Source of the DNA: Saprospiraceae bacterium | GTDB lineage: Bacteria > Bacteroidota > Bacteroidia > Chitinophagales > Saprospiraceae | NCBI GenBank assembly: GCA_029262995.1 | Contig: JAJCYH010000011.1 | Span: 186,001 to 250,000 of the forward strand | DNA: 64,000 nt | Direction of reading: 5' to 3' | Part shown: in pieces, positions 14,835-28,254 of the stretch | How the letters are laid out: the number at the start of each line of letters is the position of its first letter | Numbering within the stretch: position 1 is the stretch's first letter | Notes under the pieces: generated by a model | The model's input: the letters and a program-made list of their open reading frames with translations, nothing else | Told to the model about the DNA's origin: nothing | The model's database searches: none | Translations under genes and position numbers: made by a program

Positions 14835-14941
14835 TACCACTTATCACTTATTAACATAGTCGTAAAACCCTATTAATCAAGAGTAAACAAGAGCTCTTTA
14901 TGTTTGCATCGAATTTTAATCATATAAAAAAAACTTTCGAT

Positions 14942-16354
14942 ATGAACTCAATACTTAAAATGACCAGCCTTATAATGTTTTTGGGCTTTTTTGTGACTTC
15001 CTGTGGCGATGACGCTTGTGACACCAATTGTCCAGAAGGCACTTATCAACTTGTTGATTGTACATGTGTTTCTACCAATGCTTGCGATGGTATAACGTGT
15101 GCTGTTGGAGAAATTCTAACTGCAGATTGCGATTGTATAGTTGACAATAGCGGAGAAGTTAAAGTGATTGCTAAGACAGGTTTTGTTTGTGATGAAACTT
15201 GGACTAAGGAGAATATCTATCTTTTGCAAGGCAAGGTAGTCGTGAATGATGGTTGTACATTGACTATTGAACCTGGTACCATAATTAAAGCTGAGGATGA
15301 TCCAGGTACTTTAGCTTCGGCTCTGATTATTGCGCAAGGAGGAAAACTGATGGCAGAAGGTACTGCAACATCTCCAATCATTTTTACCTCTGTGACTGAC
15401 CAGATTATGCCAGGTGAATTACTTTCACCAAACTTAGATGAATTTGATAACAAATTATGGGGTGGACTCATCATTTTGGGCAGAGCACCTATCTCTGCTG
15501 GTGATGGTGATAACGAATCTTTAATTGAAGGACTTCCTCCGGGAGAAGACTTCGGTAAATACGGAGGATCTGATCCAGCTGATAACTCAGGTATAATAAA
15601 ATATATATCTGTAAGACACGGGGGAATATCAATCGGCGCAGATAATGAAATCAACGGCATAACTCTAGGTGGAGTAGGGAACGGAACTGTAATCGAAAAT
15701 ATTGAAGTTGTTGCAAACCTTGATGATGGTGTTGAATGGTTTGGAGGTACGGTAAATGTAAAGAATGTAGTTGTGGCATATGGAGAGGATGACGGTTTGG
15801 ACATTGATCAAAATTATTCAGGAACCATTAGTAATGCTCTAGTTATAACATCTGGGGCAACGGCTGGTGATAATGCTTTTGAAATTGATGGACCAGAAGG
15901 ATCGCTTACAGATGGATTCTTCACAATTGATGGAGCTACAGTAATTGACAAGGACGGAAACGCTGATACTGCAGCTGATCTAAAATCTAAAACTCAAGGT
16001 ACTATTAGAAATACAGTTTGGATTGGCTTTAGTGATAATATCAAAATGAGACATTCTTGTGAAGATGATTGTACTACTGAGAAATCTGACAGTTATGCGA
16101 ATTTTATTTCAGGAAAATTGGTAATTGAAAATTCAGAATGGGTTGGTAACGCAATAGTTGCAGACTGGATTTCAGTATACGGTGATAAAGATTGCCCTGG
16201 AGATCTTCCATGTACAATTACAACTGAAATGCAAGATGCTGCAATTTCGATTCTTTCCAATAATGGAAATACAATAAGCAATACTGCTACTAAAGGTGCA
16301 GACTTATCAGTATTTGAAGGATGGTCTTGGGTTGCTAATTCAGGTAATCTATAA
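14942..16354 (+). CDS. Surface lipoprotein, partner of the downstream TonB receptor
   Basis: With the ATG at 14942 the protein is 470 residues and starts with a good lipoprotein signal (LIMFLGFFVTSCGDD, lipobox Cys). The frame is open to an ATG at 14900, but that would bury the signal. After the lipid anchor are two short cysteine-rich, EGF-like stretches, then a repetitive domain (VVNDGCTLTIEPGTIIKAE, VRHGGISIGADNEINGITL) that reads as a right-handed beta-helix like those found beside TonB receptors in Bacteroidota. It probably binds a ligand at the cell surface and hands it to the receptor encoded next. Its placement after Pho-box-like repeats suggests a phosphate-related ligand, but that is inference. 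Confidence 0.7.
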   Translation: MNSILKMTSLIMFLGFFVTSCGDDACDTNCPEGTYQLVDCTCVSTNACDGITCAVGEILTADCDCIVDNSGEVKVIAKTGFVCDETWTKENIYLLQGKVVVNDGCTLTIEPGTIIKAEDDPGTLASALIIAQGGKLMAEGTATSPIIFTSVTDQIMPGELLSPNLDEFDNKLWGGLIILGRAPISAGDGDNESLIEGLPPGEDFGKYGGSDPADNSGIIKYISVRHGGISIGADNEINGITLGGVGNGTVIENIEVVANLDDGVEWFGGTVNVKNVVVAYGEDDGLDIDQNYSGTISNALVITSGATAGDNAFEIDGPEGSLTDGFFTIDGATVIDKDGNADTAADLKSKTQGTIRNTVWIGFSDNIKMRHSCEDDCTTEKSDSYANFISGKLVIENSEWVGNAIVADWISVYGDKDCPGDLPCTITTEMQDAAISILSNNGNTISNTATKGADLSVFEGWSWVANSGNL

Positions 16355-19515: not shown

Positions 19516-20403
19516 ATGGTTTATAAGATATTTATAAAGGTTTGTCTCACTATTGTTTTGTTAACATTAAGTTTACATAGCATTAGTGCTTCTAAAGAAT
19601 TTGATTCTTTGAATTCTATTCCTTTTGAAAATGCATCAGGTCTTATATTAGTTTCTGCCAGTATTGAAGGTGTATGTGGCAAATTTATTTTTGATACCGG
19701 GGCAGATCAACTTTTAATAAATAGTGCCATAAGTTTAGAAGCTTGCGATTCTGATTTTTCAACTGTTCAGGGTGAAGTTAAGACTCAAAAAATCAAGATT
19801 TCAAGTTTTAGATTGGGGCAAATTGAGATTGAGAATTTTCAAGCATTTGCTACGGATTTAAGCCAGCTAGAATCCCATGTTGGGTCCAAGATACTAGGAA
19901 TCATCGGTGCTAAGATGCTTGATTCAGAAATTATGCATATTAATAAAAAAGATCGAGTGATAGAGTTTTTACATCGAAAGACTTTAAAGGCACTTTTCTC
20001 TTCACACAATATTCAGATACCGGTAATTTTCGAAAATGATATTCCAATTATTAACTTAAGTTTGGATGGTGATTCCTATCGCTTTATATTGGATACTGGG
20101 GCTTCAATATCTTTTATTGATAAAAAGATTCTAGACAAGAGAAATGATCTATTTATTAAAACAGATAGCTCCTTTGATCTAGTAACGGCATCAGGAGAAC
20201 AATCATCGCATTTCTATTATAAGTGTAATGCTGTGAATATTGGTAATATAATATTCAGTAATGTAGAGGTATCACCATTAGATTTGACGGAAATGCAAGA
20301 GCTCTTTGATGTTGATGTAAGTGGTATTATCTCCTTAGATAGTCTACCTTTCTCTTCCTTGGTTTTGGATTATAAGAATGGACTCCTGTATTGTAGCTAT
20401 TAA
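19516..20403 (+). CDS. Periplasmic two-domain retropepsin-like aspartic protease
   Basis: 295 residues. A signal peptide (about 1-25, ending SISA) is followed by two retropepsin-type half-domains, each with the catalytic triplet: DTGADQ with Asp60 and DTGASIS with Asp about 193. The second motif of each lobe is also visible as IIGAKML and IISLDSLP (hydrophobic-hydrophobic-Gly or Ser). One chain therefore supplies both catalytic aspartates, like pepsin rather than the dimeric viral enzymes. It should cleave proteins in the periplasm or at the surface. It has its own promoter and stands upstream of the ATP-grasp unit, with a 377-base gap, so a functional link is possible but not shown. Confidence 0.82.
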   Translation: MVYKIFIKVCLTIVLLTLSLHSISASKEFDSLNSIPFENASGLILVSASIEGVCGKFIFDTGADQLLINSAISLEACDSDFSTVQGEVKTQKIKISSFRLGQIEIENFQAFATDLSQLESHVGSKILGIIGAKMLDSEIMHINKKDRVIEFLHRKTLKALFSSHNIQIPVIFENDIPIINLSLDGDSYRFILDTGASISFIDKKILDKRNDLFIKTDSSFDLVTASGEQSSHFYYKCNAVNIGNIIFSNVEVSPLDLTEMQELFDVDVSGIISLDSLPFSSLVLDYKNGLLYCSY

Positions 20404-20433: not shown

Positions 20434-20637
20434 TTAGTCTTTTAATTCCTTTTGTTTACAGTTGTAAACAATCATCATTTTGGGATGGTAAGCTTTAAAT
20501 TTAATCGATTTGGGATCTCTTTCTTTGACTTGTAGATTTCGATTTTCAGAAGTAGATATTGAAACGGAATCATGATGATTATAAGCATCATCAATATGAT
20601 TACTTTTTGCCTGCTCATGTGACTTTATTAATTTCAT
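20434..20637 (-). CDS. Possible small basic peptide gene opposite the ATP-grasp unit
   Basis: A 67-residue reading frame on the minus strand, in the gap between the protease and ATP-grasp genes. It is hydrophilic, rich in Lys, His and Ser (YNHHDSVSISTSENRN), with a single Cys near the C-terminus (VYNCKQKELKD) and no signal peptide. An A-rich stretch precedes the ATG, as is usual for Bacteroidota translation starts. It is divergent from the two ligase genes, a position often taken by peptides that such ligases modify, but none of the known graspetide core motifs is present. It could also be a chance frame; the case rests only on position and open length. Confidence 0.3.
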   Translation of the reverse strand: MKLIKSHEQAKSNHIDDAYNHHDSVSISTSENRNLQVKERDPKSIKFKAYHPKMMIVYNCKQKELKD

Positions 20638-20780
20638 TTTTTAATTATATCTGCAATTTATACCAACAATATAAATTAGAAATATCCTTAACATTAATCT
20701 TATGTTTACATTTAATTCCAGTGGATAATACTAAGTTGGATTAATTTATTTTATAGAATATTCTATAATTGATAAGTATA

Positions 20781-22229
20781 ATGGAAACTAGAGATTTAAT
20801 AAAAACATATAGCCCTGGTTCTTTTAAGAATGAGGACCATTGGTATCCAAAAGCACTTAACGCTACCATTCATCCGATGGTTAATTTTTTCCTTAATCTT
20901 GATAGCGAAAGAATTATAAATCGATATTGCCATTTGAACCCTAAAGTAGATAAACTTAGGTTAAAAGAGATACTCTCTTATCAGTGTAAGCACTTTCTTT
21001 GGGGTGGCGCGGACCTTTTTAACGCCACTTCAGAAGATGGCAAAAGGCAAATGGTAATCATAGAGAATAATTCTTGTCCTTCCGGACAAAAGTCAATGCC
21101 GCTTTTAGATGATAATAAGGAAGATGGAGCTTACAGATTATTAATTGAAAGAACATTTAAGCCATTTATAAAACCTAAGAAAGGACAGGCAAGAATAGAA
21201 GGTGACCTAGCTGTTATTTATGATAAAAACCACATGGAGACTTCAGGTTATGCGGCAATCATTGCTGATGTTATGGACGAAAATGTCCATTTAGTGCCGT
21301 TTTACAATGACTCCGATAATGGTCATATTAAAATTGAAGATGGAATTATCTTTATTATGGTAAACGAAGAGTGGATTCCAATAAGAGCAGCATTTAGATA
21401 TGTGACTCAGCAACCTTGGTCTCGCTTGCCGCTTCATACTAAAACAAAAATATTAAATCCAATTTTGGTCTGTTTGGCTGGGGGTAGGAATAAAATGGTA
21501 GCCGCAAAGGCGTACGACTTTTATAATGCCGAACTCGAAAAATATGGATTAAGAATCAGTATGCCTGAAACGATTTGGGATATTAGCAAAGCAGAAATTC
21601 CACTATGGGTTAACAAATTGGGTGGACATGCTGTGGTTAAAATCCCATACTCTAATGCAGGTCAGGGTGTTTTTACGATCACTAATGAATATGAGTTAGA
21701 GAATTTTATGGCAACGGATTTTCATTATGAGAAATATATTGTGCAAAGCCTTATAGGAAACTACAACTGGAGTTCAAGAAGTAGTTATGGAAAGTTTTAT
21801 CATGTAGGCACAATACCTACAAGTACTGGAGATACCTATGTGGCTGATATTAGAATGATGGTAAGTAGTACAGTAGAAGGGATCAAACCATTATGTATTT
21901 ACTCCAGACGTGCAGAGGAGCCTTTGGTCGATTTTTTGGAAGACGGTAGTGACTCATGGAAAATGTTAGGAACAAATCTTTCTGTTAAGTTGGGTGAAAA
22001 TTCATGGGAATCAGACACTAATCGATTATTGTTAATGGACCGAAGAGATTTTAATAAACTGGGGCTGGGATTAGATGACCTTATTGAAGGATATATCCAA
22101 ACAGTTCTATCAACTATTGCTATAGATAAAATGTGCATAAACCTGTTAAATTCAAAAGGCAAGTTTAGGATGAAACTCTTTAAATCACTTAACAATGACG
22201 AAAGCTTTTTGAATGAAATCTTATTATAA
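20781..22229 (+). CDS. ATP-grasp-fold ligase-like protein of unknown substrate
   Basis: 482 residues from the ATG at 20781; an in-frame TTG lies 12 bases earlier. The N-terminal 230 residues are a pre-ATP-grasp-like region containing ENNSCPSGQKSMPLL. From about 285 the sequence reads as an ATP-grasp domain: a lysine in HAVVKIPYSNAGQGV followed by the glycine-rich loop, EKYIVQSLIG as the adenine-binding edge, and ADIRMMVSS as part of the metal and phosphate site. ATP-grasp enzymes join a carboxylate to an amine or thiol through an acyl phosphate. The gene overlaps the next by 17 bases, so translation is coupled. I do not know a characterised member. Confidence 0.65.
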   Translation: METRDLIKTYSPGSFKNEDHWYPKALNATIHPMVNFFLNLDSERIINRYCHLNPKVDKLRLKEILSYQCKHFLWGGADLFNATSEDGKRQMVIIENNSCPSGQKSMPLLDDNKEDGAYRLLIERTFKPFIKPKKGQARIEGDLAVIYDKNHMETSGYAAIIADVMDENVHLVPFYNDSDNGHIKIEDGIIFIMVNEEWIPIRAAFRYVTQQPWSRLPLHTKTKILNPILVCLAGGRNKMVAAKAYDFYNAELEKYGLRISMPETIWDISKAEIPLWVNKLGGHAVVKIPYSNAGQGVFTITNEYELENFMATDFHYEKYIVQSLIGNYNWSSRSSYGKFYHVGTIPTSTGDTYVADIRMMVSSTVEGIKPLCIYSRRAEEPLVDFLEDGSDSWKMLGTNLSVKLGENSWESDTNRLLLMDRRDFNKLGLGLDDLIEGYIQTVLSTIAIDKMCINLLNSKGKFRMKLFKSLNNDESFLNEILL

Positions 22230-23235
22230 TAAAAAAAAGTATAGAGTTATAGCACTTACTGACCACTCTAGACATACTGATGAGAATTCAATCTATGCCA
22301 TCTTGAGTAAAATGCATTTACATGAAAGAATTGAACGCATTGATGTTGTCAGTAGAGGAGTAAGAGCGAATCAAAAATTCTTTGGAGGCGACATTAATGT
22401 AAGTGTATATGCCAGTAGAATTCAAGGCGAATTTAAGTTCAAAGAGAACCCTGATGATTTTATATCGGAGGAATTGGTTCGGATTGAAGAGTACGACATT
22501 ATTTTGATGAGATTGCCTAGACCTGTTAGTGATGGTTTTTTAATGAGTCTTGATAAATTTTCTCATGATAAATTAATTATTAATAAGCCAAAGGGAATAA
22601 TTGAAAGCAGTAATAAAAAATTCCTTTTAAATTTTCAGGCACTTTGTCCTCCAATAAAATTATGTTACTCCATTGAGGAGATTATGACTTTTTCAGAAAA
22701 ATATGACTTGGTACTCAAACCTTTAAAAGAGTATGGCGGAAAGGGAATACTGCGTTTAAAATCAGGAGTAATTAATGACGGTTTGCAAAATTATGATGCG
22801 GGAGCTTATTTGTTTGAAAAAACACAATTTATTCAGGAAGAAGGTTATTTGGCTATGAAATATTTAACCAATGTAGATAAAGGAGATAAAAGGTTACTTG
22901 TTGTAAATGGTGTTATTCTTGCTTCTTCCTTGAGAATGCCTGCGAAAGAATCATGGATATGTAATGTGGCCCAAGGTGGTTTTGCTGTAAGTTCTGAACC
23001 AGATCCTGAAGAATTGGAGATTGTAGATAAAATAAACCCAAGTCTTCAAGCATTGGGAATTTTGATCTATGGTGTTGACACGCTAATGGGAGATAATAAT
23101 AAGCGTGTATTATCAGAAATAAATACCTTAAGCATTGGTGGATTTAAGGCTGCTGATGAACAAAATCATAAATCTCCTATAGATGTATTGTTAACTCAGA
23201 TAATTGGAAAAGCAGATGAAAGATACAAAAAATGA
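22213..23235 (+). CDS. Glutathione-synthetase-like ATP-grasp ligase
   Basis: 340 residues with the order of motifs seen in prokaryotic GshB: ILMRLPRPVSDG (about 97), LIINKPKGIIESSNKKFL (substrate loop), LVLKPLKEYGGKGILRL (ATP-binding lysine and glycine loop, about 170), KGDKRLLVVNG (about 228) and a late metal site LSEINTLSIGG (about 300). GshB adds glycine to gamma-glutamylcysteine; no gamma-glutamylcysteine ligase (GshA) is adjacent, and the first-position residues differ (RPVSDG instead of PPFD), so another amino-acid or amine acceptor is likely. It starts inside the preceding gene and overlaps the following deacylase gene by up to 20 bases, forming a tightly coupled three-gene unit. Confidence 0.75.
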   Translation: MKSYYNKKKYRVIALTDHSRHTDENSIYAILSKMHLHERIERIDVVSRGVRANQKFFGGDINVSVYASRIQGEFKFKENPDDFISEELVRIEEYDIILMRLPRPVSDGFLMSLDKFSHDKLIINKPKGIIESSNKKFLLNFQALCPPIKLCYSIEEIMTFSEKYDLVLKPLKEYGGKGILRLKSGVINDGLQNYDAGAYLFEKTQFIQEEGYLAMKYLTNVDKGDKRLLVVNGVILASSLRMPAKESWICNVAQGGFAVSSEPDPEELEIVDKINPSLQALGILIYGVDTLMGDNNKRVLSEINTLSIGGFKAADEQNHKSPIDVLLTQIIGKADERYKK

Positions 23236-24187
23236 AACTAAATTTATTACAGATTTTGACCCAGACTCCATACCAAATAAAAGCCTTAGTTATTATTGGT
23301 TACAAATAGTCTCTGATAGTTTCTCCAACCCAATATCAATTCCTGTTATTGTAGCAAAAGGTAAATATAGTGGGCCAATTCTAGGTGTTACTGCTGCTGT
23401 TCATGGAAATGAACTAAATGGAATACCGGTTATTCAGAGACTGTTCGGTGAAATTGATCTCAATGAACTTAAAGGAATGATCGTTGGTGTCCCGGTCGTA
23501 AATGTTCCTTCTTTTATGCTAAGACAAAGACGGTTTACAGATGGGGTAGATATAAACCATATCTTCCCTGGAAAGTCTGATGGCAACGTAAGTCAAGTTT
23601 ATGCTTATAGGTTTATCAATCGGTTGGTTAAGCATTTTGATGTACTATTGGACCTTCATACAGCAAGTTTCGGAAGGATTAATTCCTATTATGTGAGAGC
23701 AGATATGGATCAGGCAGAAACAAGGAAATTAGCTCTTCTTCAAAATGCAGATGTAATCGTGCATAACCCTCCATTGGATGGTACGCTTAGAGGAGCAGCG
23801 GATGCATTAGGTATCCCCTCAATTACGCTTGAAGTAGGCAACCCAAACACATTTCAAAAGACCTTAATTAGAAGTGGTATTGAAGGTATTCATAATGTAC
23901 TTTGTTATTTAGATATGATTCAAGATGAGATTTATTCCGCCAAAAAGATGACCCATATGTGCAGATCATCTTATTGGTTATATACAGACAGAGGAGGTAT
24001 ATTAAATGTGCAAGCCAATTTGTTGGAAGTACTTGAAGAAGGCCATGTACTGGCTAGTCTGCGTGATGTTTTTGGCAATAAAATAAAAGATTTTCTTTCA
24101 CCTGAAAAAGGTGTCGTTATTGGTAAGAGTGTAAATCCAGTGAATCAAACAGGAGGAAGAATTTTGCATTTAGGAATTATTTCCTAG
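23216..24187 (+). CDS. Succinylglutamate desuccinylase/aspartoacylase-family zinc deacylase
   Basis: 323 residues from the ATG at 23216; a TTG at 23204 is also in frame. The M14-like zinc site is visible: His and Glu in VHGNELNGIPV (about 60) and His in LLDLHTASFG (about 145), followed by SITLEVGNP with the general-base Glu (about 207). Family members remove an N-acyl or N-succinyl group or hydrolyse an amide on an amino acid. The tail (about 245-323) is the beta-rich domain that restricts the active site. It overlaps the GshB-like gene, so ligation and hydrolysis activities are encoded together, suggesting build-and-trim processing of an amide-linked metabolite or peptide. Confidence 0.8.
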   Translation: MKDTKNETKFITDFDPDSIPNKSLSYYWLQIVSDSFSNPISIPVIVAKGKYSGPILGVTAAVHGNELNGIPVIQRLFGEIDLNELKGMIVGVPVVNVPSFMLRQRRFTDGVDINHIFPGKSDGNVSQVYAYRFINRLVKHFDVLLDLHTASFGRINSYYVRADMDQAETRKLALLQNADVIVHNPPLDGTLRGAADALGIPSITLEVGNPNTFQKTLIRSGIEGIHNVLCYLDMIQDEIYSAKKMTHMCRSSYWLYTDRGGILNVQANLLEVLEEGHVLASLRDVFGNKIKDFLSPEKGVVIGKSVNPVNQTGGRILHLGIIS

Positions 24188-24394: not shown

Positions 24395-25804
24395 ATGAAG
24401 AACACTTATTTTGATCTTATCGATCAAAGCTATTATTTTCCCCAGGAAGGATTTGACCTAAAGGACGGCTATTTAAGTTTTCATGGAGTCTCCATTAAAT
24501 ATCTTATTGAAAAATATGGGACGCCTTTCAAGTTAATGTACCTGCCTAGAATTGGAGAACAAATCAGAAAAGCAAAAAACCTATTCAATAGGTCAATTAA
24601 GAGACATAACTACAAAGGCAATTACAATTACTGTTATTGTACAAAGTGTTGCCATTTTTCTCATGTAATCAAAACAGCACTTAAGGAAGATGTTCATCTT
24701 GAAACATCATCTTCATTTGATATCGATATCATCTATGAGTTGTTAGCAGAGGGTAATATTGATAAAAAATGTATAATTGTCCATAACGGTTATAAGACAA
24801 AGGACTATTTAGAAAAAATCATTAGATTAAATAATGATGGGTTTATCAATTCAGTTATGGTGCTGGATTCTAAGTCTGAAATCAATAGACTAAAGCAAAC
24901 AATAACGGATGGTCAGAAGCCAATTAAAATTGGAATTAGAATGGCTATTGATGAAGAACCACAATCAGCATATTATACTTCTCGATTAGGCATTAGACAC
25001 ACAGAGATTTTAGACTTTTATGAATCCGAAATTAAGGGAAATCTTTCGATTGAACTTAAGATGGTACATTTCTTTATTGACTCAGGAATTAAAGACAATA
25101 TGTACTATTGGGGAGAATTTCAAAAAGCACTCAAGTTGTTTGTAGAACTTAAAACAGCTTGTCCAAGTATTAGGGCCATAAACCTGGGAGGAGGATTTCC
25201 AATACGTAATAACCTAGGATTTGAATATGATTATGAAAACATTATTAATGAGATTGTTTCCAATATTAAATCCGCTTGTGTTGAAGCTGAATTAGAGGAT
25301 CCAGATATTTTTACAGAATTCGGAAAATATACCGTTGGAGAAAGTGGTGCCATAGTATTTTCGGTCCTCGAGCAAAAACAACAAAACGATGCTGAGAAAT
25401 GGTATATGGTTGATAACAGCCTGATGAACACAATTCCTGACGCTTGGTCAATCTTTGAGAAATTCATATTGCTTCCTATTAATAAATGGGATAACGAATA
25501 CTCACGTGTCAACATTGGAGGAATAAGTTGCGATCACTCTGATTACTACAATTCTGAAGATATGAACCAACAAATATTTCTTCCTAACTTCAAGGATGAT
25601 GATACCGAACCACTTTATATAGCCTTTTTTCATACAGGGGCCTATCAGGATTCGATAAGCGGATACGGAGGAATAAAGCATTGTCTTATTCCAGCTCCAA
25701 AAATGATTATGATAGACAGAGATGATAAGGGAAATTTTGTAGATACAGTGTATAGGAATGAGCAGACAGTTAAGGATATGCTGAATATTTTGGGATATGA
25801 ATAA
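24395..25804 (+). CDS. speA: Arginine decarboxylase, Bacteroidota type (PLP fold III)
   Basis: 469 residues, the usual length of the Bacteroidota arginine decarboxylase group. The alanine-racemase-type barrel starts near residue 40 and the PLP-binding lysine lies in YCYCTKCCHF (about 80). LETSSSFD, INLGGGFPIRN (phosphate-binding glycines) and FTEFGKYTVGESGA follow in family order, and FHTGAYQDSISGYGG closes the active site. It produces agmatine, the substrate of the enzyme encoded 12 bases downstream. The CCHF after the lysine replaces the more common SSHF. A related possibility is carboxynorspermidine decarboxylase, but those are shorter and the agmatinase neighbour argues for arginine. Confidence 0.85.
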   Translation: MKNTYFDLIDQSYYFPQEGFDLKDGYLSFHGVSIKYLIEKYGTPFKLMYLPRIGEQIRKAKNLFNRSIKRHNYKGNYNYCYCTKCCHFSHVIKTALKEDVHLETSSSFDIDIIYELLAEGNIDKKCIIVHNGYKTKDYLEKIIRLNNDGFINSVMVLDSKSEINRLKQTITDGQKPIKIGIRMAIDEEPQSAYYTSRLGIRHTEILDFYESEIKGNLSIELKMVHFFIDSGIKDNMYYWGEFQKALKLFVELKTACPSIRAINLGGGFPIRNNLGFEYDYENIINEIVSNIKSACVEAELEDPDIFTEFGKYTVGESGAIVFSVLEQKQQNDAEKWYMVDNSLMNTIPDAWSIFEKFILLPINKWDNEYSRVNIGGISCDHSDYYNSEDMNQQIFLPNFKDDDTEPLYIAFFHTGAYQDSISGYGGIKHCLIPAPKMIMIDRDDKGNFVDTVYRNEQTVKDMLNILGYE

Positions 25805-25816
25805 TTTAAATTAGAT

Positions 25817-26662
25817 ATGAAAACATTTGCAGGAATTCCAGATGAATTTGCCTTGAGAGACAGCGCAAAAGTCTTGTTGCAAAGTATTCCTTATGATGGA
25901 ACCAGTACATGGGGCAAAGGTGCCGATGAGGGATTTAAAGCATTCCTTGAAGCTGCTGAAAATATGGAGCTCTATGACATCGAAACGGACTCTGAAGTTT
26001 ATAAAGAAGGGATCAGTATTATTCCAGAATTATCAGGGTTTGATTCTCCTGAAGAGATGTTTAATGCAAGTTACAATTCAACGACAAAACTTCTTAATGA
26101 AGATAAATTCCTTACTTTTTTTGGAGGCGAGCATTCAATTAGCATAGGTATTATCAAGGCCTTTTATGAAAAATTTAAAGATTTGACAGTTTTGCAAATT
26201 GATGCACATGCTGACTTAAGACCTTCTTATGGCGGAACACCATATAACCACGCTTGTGCGATGTATGACGCCAGTAAAAACACCAATCTAATTCAAGTAG
26301 GAATTAGAAGCATGGATATTGAGGAAAAGGGGCATATGGATGCATTCAAGTGTTATTTTGCTCATGAAATGGTCCAATCATCATCTTGGATGAAAGAATC
26401 GATTGGACAAATGACCGATAATGTTTATATCAGCTTTGATTTGGATGCATTCGATCCAAGTATAATGCCTGCGACAGGGACACCTGAACCTGGAGGATTG
26501 AATTGGTACACGACAATGCAATATTTAAGATCTGTTTTTGAAGAAAAGAATGTTGTTGGCTTTGACATCGTTGAGTTAGCGCCATTAAATGATTTTCATG
26601 CGGCACCATTTTTAGTATCTAAAATGTACTACAAAATGCTTAGTTACAAATATTTTGTTTAA
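25817..26662 (+). CDS. speB: Agmatinase (ureohydrolase family)
   Basis: 281 residues. Manganese ligands are visible in three motifs: GGEHSISIG (about 98), DAHADLRPSYGG (about 130, with His and two Asp) and SFDLDAFDPSIMPATGTPEPGG split over two ligands (about 213). The threonine-glycine-proline loop favours agmatinase over arginase, as does the upstream arginine decarboxylase. It makes putrescine and urea from agmatine. It lies between the decarboxylase gene (12 bases) and the deoxyhypusine-synthase-like gene (51 bases) on one transcript. Confidence 0.9.
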   Translation: MKTFAGIPDEFALRDSAKVLLQSIPYDGTSTWGKGADEGFKAFLEAAENMELYDIETDSEVYKEGISIIPELSGFDSPEEMFNASYNSTTKLLNEDKFLTFFGGEHSISIGIIKAFYEKFKDLTVLQIDAHADLRPSYGGTPYNHACAMYDASKNTNLIQVGIRSMDIEEKGHMDAFKCYFAHEMVQSSSWMKESIGQMTDNVYISFDLDAFDPSIMPATGTPEPGGLNWYTTMQYLRSVFEEKNVVGFDIVELAPLNDFHAAPFLVSKMYYKMLSYKYFV

Positions 26663-26713
26663 TCTATTTGGAATTATTGAAAACATTAATCAATTTATTG
26701 AAATAATAAACAA

Positions 26714-27694
26714 ATGACCAACAATAAAGGACCTGTTACTCAATTTATGCTAAGGCATTATAAGCATTTTAATGCTGCGGCATTGGTTGATGCTGCTCAA
26801 GCATATGAGGAACAATTGGTAATGGGCAATAAGATGATGATTACATTGGCTGGAGCAATGAGTACGGCGGAATTGGGAAAATCATTGGCGGAAATGATAA
26901 GGCAAGATAAAGTTCATATCATAACATGTACAGGAGCCAATCTTGAAGAGGATGTTTTTAATCTCGTGGCACATGATTATTACAAGCGTATTCCCAATTA
27001 CAGAGATCTTTCTCCTCAAGATGAACAAAAACTACTTGAGGCACACTTTAATAGAGTAACCGACACTTGTATACCAGAAGCTGAAGCCATGAGGCATATT
27101 GAAGAATTTCTTTATAGGGCATGGAAAAAGGCCGACGACAATAATAAAAGATATTTTCCCTATGAATATTTTTATCAGATTCTTCTCAGTGGTGAGTTGG
27201 ACTCCAAATATCAAATAAATGCAAAAGATAGCTGGCTTTTGGCTGCAGCTCAAAAAAATATTCCAATTATCGTTCCTGGATGGGAAGATTCAACATGTGG
27301 TAATTTTTTTGCTTCCTATTGTATTACAAATGATATTAAACCTGTTACAATGAAATCAGGAATTGAGTACATGATGTTTTTGGCAGACTGGTATCAGAAG
27401 AACTGTGGTCAAAATGGAGTAGGATTTTTTCAGATTGGTGGTGGAATAGCTGGCGATTTTCCAATATGTGTCGTACCTATGTTGCATCAGGACTTGCAAT
27501 TGGAAAATGTCCCAATGTGGTCATATTTTTGTCAAATAAGTGATTCAACAACCAGTTATGGCTCATATTCTGGAGCTGTACCAAATGAAAAAATTACTTG
27601 GGGCAAATTAAATGTAGAAACACCTAAATTTATTATTGAATCAGATGCTACCATAGTAGCACCTTTAATATTCGCATATTTATTAGATTGGTAA
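26714..27694 (+). CDS. Deoxyhypusine-synthase-like protein, probable homospermidine synthase
   Basis: 326 residues with the NAD-binding deoxyhypusine synthase fold: MITLAGAMSTAELGKSLAEM, IITCTGANLEEDVFNL, VGFFQIGGGIAGDFP and the active-site lysine in NEKITWGKL near residue 300, which carries the aminobutyl intermediate in the eukaryotic enzyme. Bacteria have no eIF5A to modify; bacterial members are thought to transfer the aminobutyl group to putrescine, giving homospermidine, a common polyamine in Bacteroidota. The position after arginine decarboxylase and agmatinase supports that reaction. It is probably the last polyamine gene; the two small genes that follow are closely spaced and may ride on the same mRNA. 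Confidence 0.85.
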   Translation: MTNNKGPVTQFMLRHYKHFNAAALVDAAQAYEEQLVMGNKMMITLAGAMSTAELGKSLAEMIRQDKVHIITCTGANLEEDVFNLVAHDYYKRIPNYRDLSPQDEQKLLEAHFNRVTDTCIPEAEAMRHIEEFLYRAWKKADDNNKRYFPYEYFYQILLSGELDSKYQINAKDSWLLAAAQKNIPIIVPGWEDSTCGNFFASYCITNDIKPVTMKSGIEYMMFLADWYQKNCGQNGVGFFQIGGGIAGDFPICVVPMLHQDLQLENVPMWSYFCQISDSTTSYGSYSGAVPNEKITWGKLNVETPKFIIESDATIVAPLIFAYLLDW

Positions 27695-27704
27695 ATTTTT
27701 TGTA

Positions 27705-27866
27705 ATGAAAAATCTTAAAAAGTTTAAATCAAAAGAAACAGAGAACTTAAAGAAAAAAACGTCAAAAGGTTCTCCTAAAAAAAAGAAGGCTAAATTGAGT
27801 TATGAGTCTCATGAAAAGCCAAAGAATAAAAAACATTTTTATAACGAGTTATTTGAAGAAGAATGA
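27705..27866 (+). CDS. Very basic 53-residue protein
   Basis: A small gene starting with ATG 10 bases after the deoxyhypusine-synthase-like stop and ending in TGA that overlaps the next ATG (ATGA, 27863-27866). Lysines make up more than a third of the product (KKFKSKETENLKKKTSKG, SPKKKKAKL), with a short acidic end (NELFEEE). No signal peptide or membrane segment. The coupling and spacing make it a real gene. Such composition suits a nucleic-acid- or ribosome-binding peptide, or an electrostatic partner of the highly acidic protein encoded next; neither is demonstrated. Confidence 0.65.
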   Translation: MKNLKKFKSKETENLKKKTSKGSPKKKKAKLSYESHEKPKNKKHFYNELFEEE

Positions 27867-28189
27867 ACAAGCCAAGGGTAATAAAATATTTTGAAAATCT
27901 TGATGATAATACAAAGTCAGAATTATTGACTTTGTTTCCTTTCGGATTTGATAGGAATTTAATCACTTTTAAAAATCATAAGGGTGAATTAATCAGTGCA
28001 TTACCATATGAAAATGAACATTCATTTTATATGATTAAAATGACAAAAATTGAAGCTAAGGAAATTTACAGTGATTTAGAAGATATGGATTTCGATTTGG
28101 ATGATGATAGCGATGTAGATGACAATGAAGATGAATTCGAAAATATTGATGATATCGAAGATATCGTAGATGAGTCAACTCTTGACTAG
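27863..28189 (+). CDS. Small conserved-looking protein with acidic tail
   Basis: 108 residues. The first 70 form a compact folded-looking domain (NKPRVIKYFENL, TLFPFGFDRNLITFKNHKGE, SALPYENEHSFYMIKMT) of a type I associate with short hypothetical proteins of Bacteroidota. The last 40 are almost entirely Asp and Glu with few hydrophobics. Its ATG overlaps the stop of the basic 53-residue gene, so the pair is translationally coupled. The function is unknown; charge complementarity suggests the two products may bind each other. Confidence 0.75.
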   Translation: MNKPRVIKYFENLDDNTKSELLTLFPFGFDRNLITFKNHKGELISALPYENEHSFYMIKMTKIEAKEIYSDLEDMDFDLDDDSDVDDNEDEFENIDDIEDIVDESTLD

Positions 28190-28223
28190 TAGATGCTAGT
28201 AAGGATAAAATTTAAATAAATAA

Positions 28224-28246
28224 AGCCAAGACATTTGTCCTGGCCT
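28224..28246. terminator. Weak terminator hairpin between convergent genes
   Basis: AGCCAAGACA (28224-28233) pairs with most of 28236-28245 with one mismatch. A T-rich run (TTTATTTATTT read on the minus strand) follows only on the minus side, so it mainly serves the gene starting at 31512. Confidence 0.4.
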
Positions 28247-28254
28247 TATCGAGA

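Follow-up and report, generated by a model that had tools for sequence, protein, structure and literature searches.

We describe a three-gene unit, encoding two ligases and a zinc hydrolase, from the genome of a Saprospiraceae bacterium (assembly GCA_029262995.1), where it lies within a stretch of 64,000 nucleotides of contig JAJCYH010000011.1 (positions 186,001 to 250,000), called the window below. Its first gene encodes ATPg1, a probable circularly permuted ATP-grasp ligase, and is followed by genes for a ligase related to the glutathione synthase GshB (GshB-like) and for a zinc hydrolase of the AstE/AspA type (AstE). The unit is real and conserved, it is very probably functionally coupled, and its mechanism is of a generally known kind. 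The interpretation that we favor, at a probability of about 40%, is a ligase/hydrolase cycle in which a carboxylate, likely an amino acid or a short peptide, would be conjugated to a polyamine or a polyamine precursor and the resulting amide later cut. A polyamine is the best candidate for the amine because the unit adjoins genes for the production of agmatine, putrescine, and probably homospermidine; the fold group of ATPg1 includes enzymes that join peptides to polyamines, which strengthens this candidacy. Among the titles and beginnings of abstracts that our literature searches listed, we found no description of the three-gene set, although the amidoligase survey of Iyer and colleagues may hold a prediction of it.

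Conservation of the unit

Consistent with the original prediction of three overlapping genes on one strand, the ATPg1 and GshB-like frames overlap by 17 bases and the GshB-like and AstE frames by about 20 bases. A pattern search of named genomes gave 549 matches, 512 of which encode a relative. Conservation was followed in 81 loci, consisting of the window and the best 80 of these relatives, which come mostly from Saprospiraceae assemblies; this choice favors close relatives and includes four assemblies with two contigs each. Loci L002 to L064 and L074 to L153 share some contigs and were counted separately, never summed. An AstE gene lies downstream on the same strand in all 73 loci with room for one, the contigs of the other eight ending at most 1,131 bases from ATPg1. 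Of the 78 loci with room for the GshB-like gene, 72 have it (three further contigs end within 140 bases) and six lack it (L105, L112 to L115, and L126); ATPg1 and AstE remain in those six. At its smallest, the unit consists of ATPg1 and the hydrolase, the GshB-like gene being the more dispensable member, a point that the original prediction overlooked. ATPg1 has the GshB-like gene as its direct neighbor in 71 of the 81 loci, and the two touch or overlap in 54; for the GshB-like gene and AstE, the corresponding counts are 65 and 57. Locus frames were read from the first possible start, and these overlaps may be overstated.

Among 100 relatives, ATPg1 was found in 38 (28 of 80 genera), the GshB-like gene in 34, and an AstE ortholog in 37, with pairwise overlaps of 33, 35, and 34 genomes (Fisher tests, 5e-20, 5e-21, and 1e-23; within the family, 4e-11 and 1e-11). 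In a draw of 395 genomes over the phylum, ATPg1 was found in 9. Co-occurrence extends to genomes in which the genes are scattered: all three lie on different contigs in G014 and G033, and in G036 and G040 ATPg1 and the GshB-like gene are on separate contigs. ATPg1 occurs without an AstE ortholog in G026, G028 (where the contig ends), and G060, and no AstE is near the divergent ATPg1 of L073 (46% identity). The unit is conserved in a group of Bacteroidota beyond chance, and the original prediction, which treated the three genes as a coupled block, holds up in that they are conserved together.

A few observations concern individual loci. Two ATPg1 contigs per assembly (L095/L103, L082/L110, L094/L107, and L131/L134) are either paralogs or the product of mixed bins. 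The ATPg1-AstE contig of L105 comes from an assembly named Alcanivoracaceae and is 73% identical to the window; it is perhaps a misbinned Bacteroidota contig. In Membranihabitans maritimus, a gene for a SET-domain protein directly follows ATPg1-AstE (L126, 12479-13144), and one GshB-like gene (G045, C99, 40234-41208) has one TGA inside the match.

A small frame divergent from the unit had also been noted, namely a 67-residue frame on the opposite strand (20434-20637, -). The frame is open, and a tblastn search at E 1 over 203 collected loci returned no copies except those of the window itself (L001 and L065), so that this part of the original prediction is not supported. Because of this result, and because 13 of the 21 listed frames of at least 50 residues in that stretch, the 67-residue frame among them, have no other support as genes, we treat it as a chance frame and dropped it as a feature.

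Predicted fold of ATPg1 and families of its partners

No family model was found for ATPg1. In Pfam, the window protein matched nothing at E 0.1, PDB sequence searches with the single sequence and with a profile returned nothing at E 10, and a scan of 12 members at E 1 gave a single match to an ATP-grasp model (E 0.23). A first AlphaFold model from 12 sequences was of middling quality, with a predicted local distance difference test score (pLDDT) of 70.2; a second model, built on 66 sequences, was of good quality (pLDDT 90.3; predicted template modeling score, 0.92). Foldseek placed yeast glutathione synthase first (1.5e-8) and the putative glutathionylspermidine synthase 3n6x next (4e-8). With VIA-align, the first match was 3k1t, a putative gamma-glutamylcysteine synthetase (Z 17.4; root mean square deviation, 3.9), with 325 of 424 residues aligned over model residues 46 to 455, or nearly the whole chain. 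ArgX (Z 14.0) and LysX (Z 13.7) came second and third and cover the model only from residue 140 on. A tied group followed, made up of YjfC (13.6), Escherichia coli Gss (13.4), homoglutathione synthetase (13.3), human glutathione synthetase (13.1), and YgiC (12.9), all aligning from about residue 15 of ATPg1, together with D-Ala ligases (13.4 and 13.3), which match over the shared domain only. Since the D-Ala ligases tie with the polyamine ligases, Z alone does not single out the latter. The confident model of the 482-residue protein and its fold matches bear out the proposal that the protein is ATP-grasp-like; ATPg1 is predicted to have an ATP-grasp fold and is a probable circularly permuted member of that group.

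The end of the MptN profile (224 to 272 of 291) matches residues 48 to 102 of the window protein, and the middle of the RimK profile (92 to 171) matches residues 248 to 325, an order that hints at circular permutation; each family matches 9 of 15 ATPg1 members (best E, 0.0022 for MptN and 0.00074 for RimK), and a D-Ala ligase model gave matches in two members (best E, 0.00035). Residues D77, E94, N96, K286, G293-Q294-G295, D355, R357, and R375 are invariant in alignment A4, which has 66 hand-chosen rows (L141 was omitted from the list); the rows lack the first Met, and numbering starts at residue 2. In permuted ATP-grasp enzymes, the metal-binding ExN segment comes ahead of the lysine and glycine loop that bind ATP; in ATPg1, E94-x-N96, a putative segment of this kind, precedes K286 in the sequence. 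From general ATP-grasp knowledge, and from the alignment rather than from coordinates, we infer metal and ATP roles for the invariant residues.

Several named families were searched for directly. PF03738 (glutathionylspermidine synthetase) matched neither the window protein at E 0.1 nor 12 members at E 1, and PF14403 (CP_ATPgrasp_2) likewise matched neither the window protein nor the 12 members; in the organism's own genome, both searches were negative with positive controls. Profile-profile comparisons of ATPg1 with CP_ATPgrasp_2 (E 0.04) and with the GshB-like family were not significant, the alignments being of low diversity. PF08886 (ATP-grasp GshA), of which we take 3k1t to be a member, matched neither the window protein nor the 12 members at E 1; in the own-genome search it matched nowhere, controls included, and that answer is therefore not informative. 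The predicted structure, in contrast to these profiles, shares the fold of the ATP-grasp-type GshA 3k1t over the whole chain. Another ATP-grasp-like family (453 aa) with an ELNGESPAG motif was seen in two genomes of the phylum (L180 and L181); its CP_ATPgrasp_2 match is weak (26.6 bits; cut-off, 32).

The two partners belong to recognized families, as had been proposed. The second protein matches PF02955 (2.6e-25, 89.3 bits; cut-off, 23) while remaining under the glutathione synthase equivalog cut-offs (116 of 299 bits for TIGR01380 and 124.7 of 272 for PRK05246). Its residues K169, G175-G176, R227, D289, E302, and N304, which presumably serve in ATP and metal binding, are conserved in 97% or more of 68 sequences, and in an alignment with E. 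coli GshB a differing stretch follows the conserved RxP. The AstE-type hydrolase matches PF24827 (1.3e-32, 113.3 bits; cut-off, 25) and, in the PDB, 3cdx, 3na6, and the DoeB-type 6twl. Residues H67, E70, H152, and E210 (numbered from TTG), for which we assume zinc-binding and catalytic roles, are conserved in 97% or more of 67 sequences. Both proteins fall below every listed NCBIfam cut-off. A unit that builds and cuts amides, as first suggested, remains the natural reading.

The polyamine gene neighborhood

Genes for polyamine metabolism lie immediately downstream of the unit (24395-27694), a feature that the original prediction left out (Table 1). The decarboxylase scores below cut-off against NF003763 (166.8 bits; cut-off, 369) and matches the arginine decarboxylase 3nzp in the PDB (1.4e-26). 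The best NCBIfam model for the deoxyhypusine-synthase-like protein (DHS) is NF001980, homospermidine biosynthesis protein (112.3 bits, below the cut-off of 450), and by sequence this protein is possibly of the SpeY/homospermidine synthase type.

Table 1. Unit and neighboring features, with positions counted from the first nucleotide of the window
Feature	Position	Strand	Remarks
ATPg1, probable circularly permuted ATP-grasp ligase	20781..22229	+	482 aa from ATG; reading frame open from TTG 20769
GshB-like ATP-grasp ligase	22213..23235	+	340 aa; PF02955
AstE/AspA-type zinc hydrolase	23216..24187	+	323 aa from ATG; open from TTG 23204; PF24827
Short arginine-decarboxylase-like pyridoxal phosphate enzyme, linked neighbor	24395..25804	+	469 aa; PF02784
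Agmatinase, linked neighbor	25817..26662	+	TIGR01230, 203.7 bits, over cut-off 174.3
Deoxyhypusine-synthase-like (DHS) protein, linked neighbor	26714..27694	+	PF01916, 1.4e-42
Small protein with Asp/Glu-rich tail, frequent but non-exclusive neighbor	27863..28189	+	108 aa
Terminator-like hairpin after last gene	28219..28250	.	14-pair stem, listed on - strand

Across the 81 loci, the decarboxylase neighbors the unit in 37, the agmatinase in 28, DHS in 23, and the small acidic protein in 24, while every other family beyond the unit itself occurs in at most 11. At least one polyamine gene is near the unit in 38 loci (37 by a stricter tblastn count requiring at least 40% identity) and in 15 of the 29 loci with full flanks of 8 kb on both sides. 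The decarboxylase is placed downstream on the same strand in 25 loci, upstream on the opposite strand in 6, and in the two remaining arrangements (upstream same strand and downstream opposite strand) in 3 each. In the first survey, the link was seen in 15 of 38 genomes and 7 of 28 genera, including a genome of a second family (G061). Loci L173 and L174 (family code f25) carry decarboxylase, agmatinase, DHS, the small protein, and one further small gene, also found at the same place in L070, ahead of ATPg1-AstE. In L175 (f53, another class), decarboxylase and agmatinase lie just downstream of ATPg1-AstE. The linkage thus spans four family-level groups (f1, f2, f25, and f53). An ATPg1 tree with 63 labeled rows implies 10 or more changes of link state, gains and losses being inseparable; 28 of 91 rows are unlabeled, and ten rows outside the 81 were labeled or blanked by hand. 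Of the 16 genomes that have both DHS and ATPg1, 13 show them linked. Nine proteins scanned from five loci, mostly without polyamine genes, showed no common theme.

The small protein is conserved over its first 70 or so residues and consists of 33 to 60% Asp plus Glu beyond residue 75, with a C-terminal tail that varies in length and last residue (41 distinct members). It thus lacks the conserved C-terminal glutamate of LysW-type proteins, and its family has no Pfam match over cut-off. Its gene often neighbors that of ATPg1 or DHS, and in some loci, among them L038, L040, L152, L177, and L178, it is found immediately upstream of ATPg1. A profile search found it in 32 of the 100 genomes, 10 of which have two copies and 12 of which lack ATPg1, and it is missing from 18 of the 38 ATPg1 genomes; among 14 DHS loci from genomes without ATPg1, two carry it. 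As an obligate part of the unit it was rejected after the profile search, and it is a frequent companion rather than a defining part. A second copy in the window's own genome (C29, 97509-97811) has one TGA inside.

Other features of the region add little to this picture. Directly upstream of the unit, 19516-20403 (+) encodes a retropepsin-like protein with two Asp_protease_2 stretches, and tblastn found no relative of it in the other 80 loci. Pseudomonas RimK systems reportedly include a retropepsin-like protease (PMC11957791). For the 484-residue protein encoded at 14900-16354 (+), Pfam gave no match at E 0.1. Terminator-like hairpins are pattern matches only (6 seen; 3.8 expected), and the promoter scan was near chance (40 seen; 38.6 expected). 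An Rfam scan of the window gave nothing at gathering scores, no defense-system model matched, and ATPg1 had no match in the plasmid and phage collections searched.

Candidate reactions and related systems

In the cycle that we favor, ATPg1, whose fold is predicted, would activate a carboxylate with ATP to an acyl phosphate and join it to an amine, for which homospermidine, putrescine, and agmatine are candidates. The GshB-like ligase, assigned by family, may add or supply a further residue where it is present, and the zinc enzyme, with its family assignment and conserved His and Glu residues, would hydrolyze the amide and free the amine. The linked decarboxylase, agmatinase, and DHS/SpeY-like enzyme would produce that amine, as suggested by pathways in the literature. 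Such a cycle would parallel glutathionylspermidine synthetase/amidase, the fused amidase being replaced by a zinc hydrolase encoded by a gene of its own. A more specific version, which is possible but tentative, has ATPg1 as a previously undescribed, permuted ATP-grasp family with a GshA-like fold in which a polyamine replaces cysteine as the acceptor, so that an acyl- or peptidyl-(homo)spermidine, a new class of metabolite in Bacteroidota, would be formed and then cut by a dedicated zinc amidase. This version would add another independent way, besides glutathionylspermidine and trypanothione, of storing or masking polyamines as peptides.

Several results weigh against a polyamine substrate. 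On the structural side, the Z score of 3k1t is clearly above those of the polyamine ligases (about 13), with which D-Ala ligases tie at Z 13.4, and a comparison of the ATPg1 and GspS profiles did not reach significance (E 0.05; low alignment diversity). As to linkage, 43 of the 81 loci show no polyamine gene, some of them owing to short contigs, and DHS shows no co-occurrence with ATPg1, being present in 16 of 38 ATPg1 genomes and in 27 of 62 others. DHS and decarboxylase as co-occurring partners are unsupported by genome counts; physical linkage alone is supported. The coupling itself looks looser in the first survey, where AstE was seen in only 30 and the GshB-like gene in 27 of 36 loci, and the Fisher tests and correlated distances ignore shared descent.

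The best structural match, a putative GshA-type enzyme, together with the position of ATPg1 beside a gene of the GshB family, is the strongest point for a glutathione-like peptide pathway, in which ATPg1 would be a gamma-glutamyl ligase remotely related to GshA, the GshB-like enzyme would add the next residue, the zinc enzyme would trim or recycle it, and the polyamine neighbors would be incidental. The window's own genome has no match to GCS2 (PF04107) or Glu_cys_ligase (PF04262), with positive controls, which leaves the slot of a GshA partner empty and makes ordinary glutathione synthesis in this genome unlikely. The original statement that no GshA is present is thus upheld for these two families and otherwise calls for caution, in that ATPg1 itself resembles 3k1t, the PF08886 search had no positive control, and 11 of 60 relatives match PF04107. 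We regard the peptide pathway as somewhat doubtful, given that the GshB-like gene is lost with room to spare in 6 of 78 loci that keep ATPg1 and AstE, that PF08886 matches none of the 12 members, that the GshB-like protein is far under the glutathione synthase equivalog cut-offs, and that the polyamine linkage is recurrent. The two readings can be combined, as a GshA-like ligase with a polyamine acceptor.

A different small molecule as the substrate of the unit, with the adjacency of polyamine genes a neutral or regulatory habit, would account for the 14 of 29 full-flank loci that are unlinked and for the presence of the decarboxylase, a housekeeping gene, in 83 of the 100 genomes, both of which also tell against the polyamine cycle. 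This is unlikely, in that no rival neighbor family exceeds 11 of the 81 loci and the linkage recurs in other families and in varied orientations. LysX and ArgX add residues to LysW, and RimK to S6; that the ligases here likewise add residues to the small acidic or another protein, from which the zinc enzyme would remove them, draws on the second and third structural matches and on the linkage of the small protein in 24 of 81 loci, some of which have it immediately before ATPg1, and is quite improbable in view of the partial coverage by ArgX and LysX, the variable C terminus of the small protein, its two copies in 10 of 32 genomes, its absence from 18 of 38 ATPg1 genomes, and its presence in 12 of 62 others.

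For the polyamine cycle, the closest comparison is with E. coli Gss, YgiC, and YjfC, whose ATP-grasp fold is shared with ATPg1 from the N-terminal part on (Z about 13). Gss, like the unit, pairs a ligase with an amidase in a polyamine setting, and YgiC is annotated as a peptide--spermidine ligase. Unlike Gss, ATPg1 lacks a PF03738 match and is a single 482-residue protein with no fused amidase, the hydrolase being a separate AstE/AspA zinc gene, and an additional GshB-like ligase is present. The ATP-grasp-type GshA resembles ATPg1 over nearly the whole chain and differs in that ATPg1 has no sequence-profile match to it and has a hydrolase partner, with a GshB-like partner that is not constant. 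The second protein shares the family and the predicted ATP and metal residues of bacterial GshB, from which it departs in its TIGR01380 score and in the stretch after RxP; the third shares the PF24827 domain and conserved His and Glu residues with DoeB, AstE, and AspA and stays below every NCBIfam cut-off listed.

Published work offers precedents for the amine. SpeY, a DHS homolog, makes homospermidine, and homospermidine synthase (hss) genes cluster with gss in phage Motura and in beta-proteobacteria, which is said to indicate a potential for glutathionylhomospermidine (PMC9992855). In Thermus, a DHS homolog and a ureohydrolase make homospermidine from agmatine (PMC10981699). The hss-gss clusters resemble our unit in placing a homospermidine-making gene beside a polyamine ligase gene and differ in using another homospermidine synthase and a gss homolog; the section on them mentions no GshB-like or zinc hydrolase partner (PMC9992855).

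To our knowledge, few bacterial polyamine-conjugating systems have been characterized. If the polyamine cycle is correct, many Saprospiraceae and some other Bacteroidota would make a polyamine metabolite by means of a ligase that no Pfam family names, and two or three proteins would suffice for a direct test of the question. Should the link to polyamines fail, a Pfam-less ATP-grasp family tied to a hydrolase still gains a predicted fold, conserved residues, and partners.

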